Assembly: GCA_947303255.1 (NCBI GenBank)
Contig: CAMYXL010000008.1
Location: forward strand, 1 to 60,505
Length of the DNA: 60,505 nt
DNA from: an uncultured Clostridia bacterium
GTDB lineage: Bacteria; Bacillota; Clostridia; Saccharofermentanales; Saccharofermentanaceae
Reading direction: 5' to 3'
The notes beneath the pieces are model-generated. The model was not told the origin of the DNA, did not search any database, and was given only the letters and a program-made list of their open reading frames with translations. Every line of letters begins with the position of its first letter. Position 1 is the stretch's first letter. This document shows, piece after piece, positions 11,123-36,164 of the stretch. Both the position numbers and the translations under genes were made by a program.

Positions 11123-11186
11123 TCTCCTTTTCAGGTTATAAGTCTTAGTTATATCAATCGATAAAAAAGGCCTATTGTCTTACCCA

Positions 11187-11214
11187 TTGACTTGGTAGGT
11201 GAATGTGATAACAT
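11187..11214 (+). promoter_or_regulatory. Promoter of the metY leader
   Basis: TTGACT (11187-11192), 16 bases, TAACAT (11209-11214). It lies about 50 bases before the leader peptide start codon. Confidence 0.55.
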
Positions 11215-11262
11215 ACAAATGTCCGCAGGGACAACAGACCAAACGAAAGGAGACACAAAGCT

Positions 11263-11376
11263 ATGTCGAGCATTACAAGAACAAACACACAGATGATGTG
11301 TTGTCGAATGTTTAACTCCCGAGCATCGAAGAAGGCCGGGGCAGACGACAAGCGATGTTGTGCCTCAAAAAGATAA
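11263..11376 (+). CDS. Met/Cys-rich leader peptide of metY (37 residues)
   Basis: AAAGGAG lies ten bases upstream of an ATG that opens a 37-codon frame. It carries MMCCRM at residues 11-16 and a second Cys pair in RCCASKR at the end. Paired Cys codons beside Met codons, ahead of a sulfur-amino-acid gene and a terminator hairpin, are the hallmarks of a ribosome-stalling leader peptide. The first Cys pair (11299-11304) lies 11 bases before the 5' arm of the putative antiterminator. The stop codon is at 11374-11376, 100 bases before metY. The function is inferred from this architecture. Confidence 0.78.
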   Translation: MSSITRTNTQMMCCRMFNSRASKKAGADDKRCCASKR

Positions 11377-11430
11377 AAAGACTTTTGCCTTGATGTTCGG
11401 GAGCTTAATAAAGTAAGCCCCCATTTTTTT
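11316..11430 (+). promoter_or_regulatory. Transcription attenuator of metY (antiterminator/terminator pair)
   Basis: Left arm 11316-11336 (CTCCCGAGCATC, bulge, AAGGC) pairs with 11387-11403 (GCCTTGATGTTCGGGAG) as an antiterminator. The terminator uses GGGAGCTTA (11399-11407) and TAAGCCCCC (11414-11422), nine pairs with one mismatch, then ATTTTTTT. The arms share 11399-11403, so the two structures exclude each other. A ribosome stalled at the first Cys pair leaves the antiterminator arm free; one translating onward covers it. Confidence 0.75.
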
Positions 11431-11476: not shown

Positions 11477-12763
11477 ATGAGTAATTATAAATTTGAGACA
11501 CTTCAGCTTCACGTAGGACAGGAACAGGCAGATCCGGTAACAGATGCAAGAGCAGTACCGATCTATCAGACAACATCATATGTATTCCATAACAGCCAGC
11601 ACGCAGCTGACAGATTCGCACTTAAGGATGCCGGCAACGTATACGGAAGACTTACGAATCCTACAGAGGGAGTTCTCGAGAGCAGGATTGCCGCTCTTGA
11701 GGGAGGAAGCGCAGCACTTGCAGTAGCATCCGGTGCAGCTGCTATCACATACACTATCCAGGCTCTCGCGGCTAACGGCGGTCACATCGTAGCACAGAGC
11801 TCTATCTATGGAGGAAGCTTCAACCTTCTTTCTAATACACTTCCGCAGTACGGCATCAATACAACATTCGTAAATATCCATGATCTGGATGAAGTTAAGA
11901 ATGCGATCACATCAAACACAAGAGCTATCTACATCGAGACACTCGGTAACCCTAATAGTGACATCCCGGATATCGAAGCACTTGCTTCTCTTGCTCACGA
12001 GCATAAGATCCCGCTCGTAGTTGATAACACATTCGGTACTCCTTACCTCATCAGACCATTCGAGTACGGTGCAGATATCGTTGTTCATTCCGCTACTAAG
12101 TTTATCGGCGGTCACGGAACAACATTGGGCGGTGTCATTATCGAGTCAGGTAAGTTCGACTATAAGGCCAGCGGTCTTTTCAAGAACATCACTGATCCTA
12201 ACCCGAGCTACCACGGAATCCCATTCTTTGATGCAGTAGGACCTGCAGCATTCGTTACATATATCAGAGCTATTATCTTGAGAGATACAGGTGCAGCTAT
12301 CTCACCATTCAATGCATTCCTGCTCCTTCAGGGAATCGAGACACTTTCCCTCAGACTTGAAAGACATGCAGAGAACACAAAGAAAGTCATCGACTTCCTG
12401 AAAAATCACCCTCAGGTAGAAAAGATCAACCATCCTGCACTCGAGGATCACCCTGATCACGAACTTTACAAGAAGTACTTCCCGAACGGCGGAGCATCTA
12501 TCTTCACATTCGACATCAAGGGCGGCGAGAAAGAAGCATGGGCATTCATCGATAACCTTAAGATCTTCTCACTTCTTGCTAACGTAGCAGATGTTAAGAG
12601 CCTTGTTATCCACCCTGCAACAACAACTCACTCACAGCTTCCTGCTGAGGAACTCGAGGAATTGGGCATCAAGGGAAATACCATCAGACTCTCCATCGGT
12701 ACAGAGCACATTGATGATATCATCGCTGATCTTGAGAACGGATTTGCTGCTGCAAAGAACTGA
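11477..12763 (+). CDS. metY: O-acetylhomoserine sulfhydrylase (O-acetylhomoserine aminocarboxypropyltransferase)
   Basis: PLP-dependent enzyme making homocysteine from O-acetylhomoserine and sulfide (direct sulfhydrylation). Family features: an N-terminal FETLQLHVGQEQADPVTDARAVPIYQTTSYVF, an YGRLTNPTEGVLESRIAALEGG block, and the PLP-binding lysine Lys208 in HSATKFIGGHGTTLGG. The 428 residues, with the long insertion seen in MetY rather than MetB/MetC, favour this assignment. AAGGAG precedes the start. Control appears to be by the leader-peptide attenuator just upstream. The stop codon abuts that of a convergent minus-strand gene. Confidence 0.95.
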   Translation: MSNYKFETLQLHVGQEQADPVTDARAVPIYQTTSYVFHNSQHAADRFALKDAGNVYGRLTNPTEGVLESRIAALEGGSAALAVASGAAAITYTIQALAANGGHIVAQSSIYGGSFNLLSNTLPQYGINTTFVNIHDLDEVKNAITSNTRAIYIETLGNPNSDIPDIEALASLAHEHKIPLVVDNTFGTPYLIRPFEYGADIVVHSATKFIGGHGTTLGGVIIESGKFDYKASGLFKNITDPNPSYHGIPFFDAVGPAAFVTYIRAIILRDTGAAISPFNAFLLLQGIETLSLRLERHAENTKKVIDFLKNHPQVEKINHPALEDHPDHELYKKYFPNGGASIFTFDIKGGEKEAWAFIDNLKIFSLLANVADVKSLVIHPATTTHSQLPAEELEELGIKGNTIRLSIGTEHIDDIIADLENGFAAAKN

Positions 12764-36037: not shown

Positions 36038-36068
36038 AAAAGTCTTGTCAAATGTAAGTCGTTAAAAG

Positions 36069-36160
36069 TCCGTCCCTACGTTGGCATTATCCAAATCAGG
36101 TAATCGGTTCAAAGCTCAATTACTTCATCTCAGCCTGAGTTACAAGCACCCGTGTACGGA
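36069..36160 (-). promoter_or_regulatory. TPP (THI-box) riboswitch
   Basis: Minus-strand leader of thiS. Closing stem TCCGT/ACGGA joins 36160-36156 and 36073-36069. Conserved elements in order: ACGGGTGC, GGCTGAGATGA, GAACCGATTACCTGATTTGG, then ATAATGCCAACGTAGGGA. These match the TPP aptamer (GGGUGC, CUGAGA, GAACCUGAUCUGG, AAUGCCAGCGUAGGGA). Ligand binding should release CCAAATCAGG into the terminator and switch the operon off. Confidence 0.95.
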
Positions 36161-36164
36161 TAGA

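Follow-up and report, generated by a model that had tools for sequence, protein, structure and literature searches.

The metY gene of an uncultured Clostridia bacterium is very probably preceded by a ribosome-mediated, cysteine-responsive transcription attenuator of a kind that many Clostridia carry ahead of genes for MetY, MetQ, and transporters. A ribosome waiting at a pair of cysteine codons in a short leader open reading frame (ORF) is predicted to let an antiterminator form, with read-through into the genes downstream. The window, i.e., the whole stretch of DNA that was analyzed, comprises 60,505 nucleotides (positions 1 to 60,505 of the forward strand of contig CAMYXL010000008.1, assembly GCA_947303255.1). 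Sequence comparison yielded the ORF, its Cys pairs, the overlap of antiterminator and terminator, an inner hairpin (P2), a helix involving the leader's own Shine-Dalgarno (SD) sequence, and the conservation of all of these; from them we infer the steps of switching. The relatives recovered indicate that the metY leader is one member of a wide Clostridia leader family and not a single locus.

All parts of the window leader lie on the forward strand. The 37-codon leader peptide ORF (MSSITRTNTQMMCCRMFNSRASKKAGADDKRCCASKR, 11263..11376), taken from the ORF list and a frame test, follows the SD sequence AAAGGAG (11246..11252). Codons 13 and 14, TGT TGT, form the first Cys pair (11299..11304), with which the core TGTTGTCGAATG begins (11299-11310; both from the sequence and pattern searches), and codons 32 and 33 form the second (11356..11361), which the ribosome scan described below places within a second antiterminator-permissive zone. 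The antiterminator pairs a 5′ arm at 11316..11336 with a 3′ arm at 11387..11403 (duplex energy, −27.2 kcal/mol; the 3′ arm also follows from an 83-sequence alignment), and P2 is nested within it (11338..11366, strands 11338-11350/11356-11366, −13.9 kcal/mol). The 5′ arm is also used by an anti-antiterminator hairpin (11317..11341, strands 11317-11324/11335-11341, −10.9 kcal/mol). A segment of the ORF at 11351..11366 is able to pair with the SD region (11250-11262) in an interrupted helix of −9.4 kcal/mol that excludes P2. The intrinsic terminator (11399..11430) consists of a hairpin (11399-11407/11414-11422, −11.7 kcal/mol) and a run of seven T's (11424-11430), and since 11399-11403 is common to the antiterminator and the terminator, the two are mutually exclusive. 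Thus, both the 37-codon ORF with two Cys pairs and the exclusive hairpins described in the initial annotation are present; the ORF has an SD sequence upstream and keeps its frame in relatives, and the hairpins are paired across 83 diverse sequences. The gene downstream (11477..12763) encodes an O-acetylhomoserine aminocarboxypropyltransferase/cysteine synthase (TIGR01326, 614.8 bits against a cut-off of 495.1). A simple scan restricted to this region was not significant (it gave one promoter-like site where 1.7 are expected and did not list the terminator); a chance origin of the window leader is excluded by the comparison with related leaders. Elsewhere in the window, a TPP riboswitch was matched at 36056-36162 on the reverse strand (61.2 bits).

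The antiterminator and P2 are referred to here as the ON fold, and the SD helix, anti-antiterminator, and terminator as the OFF fold. Because the SD helix excludes P2 and nests with the anti-antiterminator, the leader would have two global folds. With ample Cys-tRNA, the ribosome would pass the Cys pair, cover the antiterminator arm, and then leave, upon which the anti-antiterminator and the SD helix would occupy the arm, the terminator would form, and the leader SD would be closed. With scarce Cys-tRNA, the ribosome would wait with its A site on a Cys codon and its front edge just short of the antiterminator arm, so that the antiterminator and P2 could form and RNA polymerase would read through into metY. 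The later Cys codons, which cluster at +17 to +21 (the second pair of the window leader is +19/+20), may provide a second waiting place, because a ribosome there would occupy both the distal strand of the anti-antiterminator and the strand that closes the SD sequence and would leave the arm free.

The source genome (∼2.9 Mb in 116 contigs) holds three copies of the leader, before metY, a metQ-type gene, and a metN-type gene. A search of this genome with the metY leader returned a 30-base match elsewhere, which belongs to a leader with the same architecture, ahead of the metQ-type gene (L003); the third leader (L014) precedes the metN-type gene in the same cluster. The name metN is given by its place beside metI/metQ-type genes and by appearance, and the genome's own MetQ matched TIGR00363 with an E value of 3e-53, below the model cut-off. 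Within the same taxonomic family, matches were found in 71/115 genomes when three mismatches were allowed and synonymous positions left free, with one match in the reversed control; three rows of that search with a different core (G051, G056 contig 49, and G078) are by eye chance matches. An exact gapped pattern matched 62/188 genomes of the order, all within 2 of the 30 genera, which both belong to the family of the source genome, and its reversed controls gave zero matches. A collection of named genomes contained at least 119 stretches matching an exact pattern of 19 fixed bases, with ∼2 expected by chance according to our own arithmetic. The conservation of the core among these sites is no evidence, because the core itself found them. 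Isolates among the matches listed include Lachnospiraceae AC2029, NC2008, and YSD2013, Clostridium porci, and Ruminococcaceae bacterium KHP2. Across the class the distribution is patchy: 11/391 genomes matched, and 10 of the 12 sites were genuine by context, the other two (L231 and L240) being set aside as chance matches. The family of Lachnospiraceae AC2029 carries the leader in 10/150 genomes, and 100 genomes of another family gave four matches, three of them genuine; the fourth (L254), with no recognized gene downstream, is a chance match.

In total, 221 sites were collected, and 39 were dropped before counting (26 identical, 5 with N, 4 without an SD sequence, and 3 + 1 near contig ends), leaving 182 non-identical leaders, among which near-identical ones remain. 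Swap tests used 130 representatives; energy, ribosome-scan, and residue counts used the 126 of these in which a T run was found; and the covariation alignment comprised 83 sequences of 106 alignable representatives. Thirteen further loci, from the class-wide search and those in the AC2029 family and the other family, were fetched later; 10 of them have an SD-preceded start under the script rule and 12 have a MetY, transporter, or permease gene downstream. One of the 13, L268, whose peptide is identical to that of L212, lacks both a strong antiterminator and a T run. On contig 98 of G071, two leader copies (L080/L131) lie 127 bases apart with an N run between them, which may be a repeat or an assembly fault.

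The initial annotation had proposed searching relatives for Cys-pair leader ORFs upstream of metY; 80 of the 182 non-identical leaders obtained precede MetY-type genes (63 close and 17 distant MetY-like). MetQ follows 68 leaders and a family-3 amino-acid binding protein 12, one of the downstream binding proteins being a fusion of a family-3 domain with a MetQ/NlpA domain. The remainder precede LysR (5), Fe-ADH (3), an amino-acid ABC permease (3), a JAB-domain gene (2), MetN (1), no recognized gene (3), or the contig end (5). In the LysR type (L046, L056, L074, L088, and L090), LysR is followed by a nitrogenase-component-1-like gene (families were scanned for L074 only), which may resemble the nitrogenase-like sulfur-salvage reductases. 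The second half of the LysR-class leaders is shifted by one base, and a TCGATGT-like RNA segment is nonetheless mostly kept out of frame, with TCGGTGT in its place in L088. In the JAB type (L198 and L203), next after the JAB-domain gene comes one for a rhodanese-domain ThiF protein (scanned for L198 only), the N terminus of which resembles SAMP/MoaD below the cut-off; this pair could constitute a sulfur-carrier route to cysteine. Downstream of L159, one of the leaders with no recognized neighbor, a GCS2-domain, glutamate-cysteine-ligase-like gene starts 660 nt past the Cys pair. As far as homology tells, most downstream genes appear to fit sulfur metabolism, the alcohol dehydrogenase not plainly so. 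One switch is likely to coordinate MetY, MetNIQ, amino-acid or cystine-type uptake, and a few other genes.

In 171/182 leaders, frame 0 runs uninterrupted from an SD-preceded ATG to the Cys pair; frame +1 does so in 4 and frame +2 in 0. Restoring the four sites dropped for lack of an SD sequence makes the frame 0 count 171/186. Between 12 and 14 codons precede the core in 148/182 leaders and 4 or 5 in a small group (7/182). Cysteine is enriched outside the core pair as well, accounting for 198/3031 residues (6.5%) in 81 Clostridia leaders (loci chosen with an expression allowing only CGA or CAA), compared with 1.15% of codons in 10 window genes. The frame counts indicate a genuine leader ORF. 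A metabolite-binding riboswitch in which the core UGUCGAAUG and the SD helix form the pocket and the ORF is incidental would account for a conserved core without a found partner, an SD-hiding helix, and an overlapping terminator; the preserved frame with its SD sequence and the Cys enrichment speak against it, as does the lack of any Rfam match for the window leader at gathering score or for 10 leader loci at E≤1, and we regard it as very improbable. The same searches at the same thresholds returned no T-box and no SAM riboswitch. Both were matched elsewhere in the genome: the T-box 11 times, 4 of them above the Rfam cut-off, and the SAM riboswitch (RF00162) once (C36, L242), before a MetK-like ORF that was read as metK from its translation. 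A sensor based on translation, in place of either element, as had been suggested from the sequence of this stretch, agrees with this distribution. No published description of the leader family was found in open-access PMC text, and no Rfam family matched it at these thresholds.

The core is the most constant part of the leader, and the manner of its conservation bears on what the ribosome responds to. Among 126 leaders, the residues of the pair region are Cys in 124 and 125, Arg in 125, and Met (+3) in 126, values that are partly fixed by the search patterns; Ser occupies +6 in 119/126 and Arg +7 in 123/126, both codons being read from the antiterminator arm. These near-invariant residues (CCRM, in a core partly fixed by the search patterns, with S at +6 and R at +7) could be read as an arrest peptide: MCCRM would stall the ribosome in answer to a small ligand, be it Cys, Met, SAM, or a reduced sulfur compound, and a lack of Cys-tRNA would play a secondary part. 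At least three leaders (L014, with MCRRM, L035, and L039) have only one Cys at the core, which suggests that two are not always needed and favors the same reading. Against this, TGT CGA ATG was retained in 10/10 matches of the search in the AC2029 family and in all 10 genuine class-wide matches, with synonymous positions left free in both searches (the first Cys codon may be TGC). Since other codons were allowed, nucleotides and not only residues are kept in the core. In the ten window genes, CGA makes up 6/107 Arg codons and TGT 22/46 Cys codons. The antiterminator arm supplies the codons of the S-R residues, the residues ahead of the core vary, the Cys pair is preceded by no more than four codons in some leaders, and extra Cys codons are enriched, all of which makes an arrest peptide unlikely. 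The cysteine-responsive attenuator has its own limit here: conservation of UGUCGAAUG down to synonymous positions suggests that Cys starvation alone is insufficient as its cause. A pairing partner for the core was sought in two later leader segments, and its own segments were no better than swapped ones among 130 representatives. Our guess is that the conservation may reflect a polymerase pause or CGA codons that are decoded slowly. Many MetQ-type leaders of the same taxonomic family end in CGA TGT TGA/TAA (Arg-Cys-stop), with Cys as the last codon.

The helices of both folds are conserved in the covariation alignment. In the ON fold (83 diverse sequences), pairing reaches 98.4% of cells for the antiterminator, 83.5% for its extension, and 74.5% for P2. 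Together, the ON helices are 87.5% paired, compared with 28.6 to 54.7% when the strands are slid, and double changes occur in 15/22 pairs (6/7 in P2). They hold 68 double-change cells against 22.1 in shuffled alignments; 0/500 shuffles were as high on each measure, a fraction that is not a probability. The OFF helices are 79.6% paired against 34.6 to 56.0% when slid; 15/500 shuffles matched their number of pairs with double changes, and 0/500 their number of double-change cells. Within the OFF fold, the terminator is paired in 89.2% of cells, the SD helix, which joins the SD region to the 3′ strand of P2, in 70.4% with double changes in 8/8 pairs, and the anti-antiterminator in 74 to 89% with no compensatory change. 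RNAalifold by itself returned the antiterminator only. In swap tests with 130 representatives, leaders fared better with their own partner than with an exchanged one in 97 cases for the antiterminator, 103 for P2 (P = 1.9e-15), and 103 for the SD helix (P = 2.5e-13). No gain for own pairs was seen among the same 130 for the anti-antiterminator or for the SD sequence against two other target regions, and pairing of an upstream part of the ORF with the antiterminator arm was rejected, own pairs being worse than swapped ones. Among ten leaders fetched later, including two repeats of earlier ones, the sign of the SD helix held in 7.

To relate the position of the ribosome to the two folds, 30 nt were masked around each position in 126 leaders and the ON and OFF folds were compared; all energies are equilibrium values, so folding order and polymerase speed are outside their scope. 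In 81/126 leaders, the offset between the first Cys codon and the beginning of the antiterminator arm is 17 nt. With the first or second Cys codon in the A site, the mean ON minus OFF energy is 1.3 or 0.9 kcal/mol, and it rises to 4.1 one codon past the pair, 9.2 two codons past it, and then about 11 kcal/mol. In this model, the first Cys pair is the last waiting place before the antiterminator arm is covered, and the initial proposal that the pair is positioned to free the arm thus gains support from the offset and from the collapse of the ON/OFF balance within one to two codons. Even with the ribosome at the pair, no more than 56 and 59 of the 126 leaders favor ON in the scan. The lowest means (−0.2 to 0.4) occur at the start of the ORF, with the ribosome over the SD sequence, and a second, weaker permissive zone has a mean of 1.5 with +18 in the A site. 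By folding energy, ON is favored in 33 of 126 leaders with no ribosome, 21 with a ribosome at the stop codon, 61 at the Cys pair, and 4 on the arm. In the window leader, the second-lowest value of the scan (−9.2) falls at +19, only the start codon being lower (−10.9). This leader favors ON even when no ribosome is present (−47.8 against −41.2 for OFF), so termination there would depend on kinetics or on a ribosome close to the end. The metN leader of the same genome, which has one Cys (MCRRM), shows the opposite trend in the scan.

Permutation of codon positions bears on which residue is sensed. The later Cys codons as a group occupy ON-favoring positions (0/2000 permutations as low), and in 26/126 leaders a Cys codon lies at +9, a place from which a stalled ribosome would mask the antiterminator arm. 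Codons for Asp, Glu, and Thr are also found at ON-favoring positions, so position alone is no proof of Cys sensing. The same architecture might instead sense Met, either alone or jointly with Cys, as the initial annotation had suggested: MetY and MetQ serve Met, and Met is found at −1 in 94/126 leaders and at +3 in 126/126 (the latter fixed by the search patterns). In the leaders that lack Met at −1, however, the residue there is mostly Cys (19) or Trp (7); the single SAM riboswitch match in the genome precedes the gene read as metK; and the downstream Met codons sit where a stall would favor termination (all 2000 permutations lower). Together with the cystine-type transporters among the downstream genes, these positions lend no support to a share for Met, and we consider Met sensing distinctly improbable relative to Cys.

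The region upstream of the leaders may carry further control. In the window, a palindrome-like element, ACCCATTGACTTGGTAGGT (11182..11200), overlaps a −35 sequence (TTGACT, 11187-11192), which is followed by a −10 sequence (TAACAT, 11209-11214); the promoter-like match is not above chance by itself. A CCYATTGAC...GG-type element lies at most 110 nt ahead of the start of the leader in 85/92 leaders of the same taxonomic family and 70/90 others (chance rate not computed). A near-palindrome around the −35 sequence (ACCYATTGAC...GTAGGT) is common to all three leaders of the genome (window 11182-11200, L003 1400-1418, and L014 1393-1411). We infer that the palindrome-like element may be an operator. 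A gene for an Rrf2-family regulator (PF02082) adjoins the metN leader of the same genome in divergent orientation. Given this gene and the upstream near-palindrome, a CymR-like second layer of control over the leaders is possible.

Because the SD helix excludes P2, adoption of the OFF fold would also make the ribosome site of the leader itself inaccessible. This suggests, tentatively, a self-closing sensor that is read once: with the SD sequence held in the OFF fold, a pioneer ribosome might test cysteine a single time, UGU-UGU-CGA-AUG might time that test, and the device might govern a cysteine/sulfur regulon across many Clostridia. A self-limiting ribosome site has reportedly been described for the trpL leader of Escherichia coli, so the SD-closing feature may have a precedent. 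Through the leader family, a testable cysteine regulon can be proposed for numerous Clostridia of rumen and gut, many of which are known from metagenome assemblies alone, and the 12-base tag of the family offers a means of finding members. Since the mechanism needs a ribosome that arrives in time, it also bears on transcription-translation coupling in these bacteria.

In the Firmicutes, the usual association is with T-boxes and riboswitches. Like the trp/his/ilv-type attenuators of Proteobacteria and Actinobacteria, the Clostridia leader has an SD-led short ORF with regulatory codons and an antiterminator that excludes an intrinsic terminator and whose arm would be free only with a waiting ribosome; it differs in its Cys codons, in an arm that lies inside the ORF just past these codons, and in the helix closing its own SD sequence. 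Polycysteine leaderless short ORFs of mycobacteria were reportedly described by Canestrari et al. in 2020. Leader-peptide attenuation has been linked mainly with Proteobacteria and Actinobacteria, according to excerpts of one source (PMC2965389). In the portions of the sources consulted, the mycobacterial polycysteine leaders are leaderless and translational (PMC13236596), and the actinobacterial cys leaders have, in Mycobacterium, Cys runs near the stop codon and no conserved terminator hairpin (PMC1262725). As described there, these leaders likewise place Cys codons in a short upstream ORF before cysteine and sulfur genes and are cysteine-responsive. In contrast to the mycobacterial polycysteine leaders so described, the Clostridia leader is not leaderless, having an SD-preceded start (171/182), and ends in an intrinsic terminator. 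Compared by description, from part of the source, uORFC-8-2 before cysS in Rhodobacterales shares tandem Cys codons (positions 14-15) and a terminator-like stem with the Clostridia leader; UGC is dominant there and the gene is cysS, whereas the Clostridia leader uses TGT, precedes metY, metQ, and transporter genes, and belongs to another clade (PMC8632094). The histidine leader peptide of bacilli, in excerpts of its source, is likewise a predicted attenuation system of Firmicutes, for another amino acid and other genes (PMC2965389). Finally, the Cys-specific T-boxes of Clostridium perfringens, as far as the excerpted source goes, also subject sulfur genes to premature termination according to cysteine availability; there the RNA reads the tRNA directly, whereas the metY leader, which has no T-box match, would do so through a translated ORF (PMC2940859).
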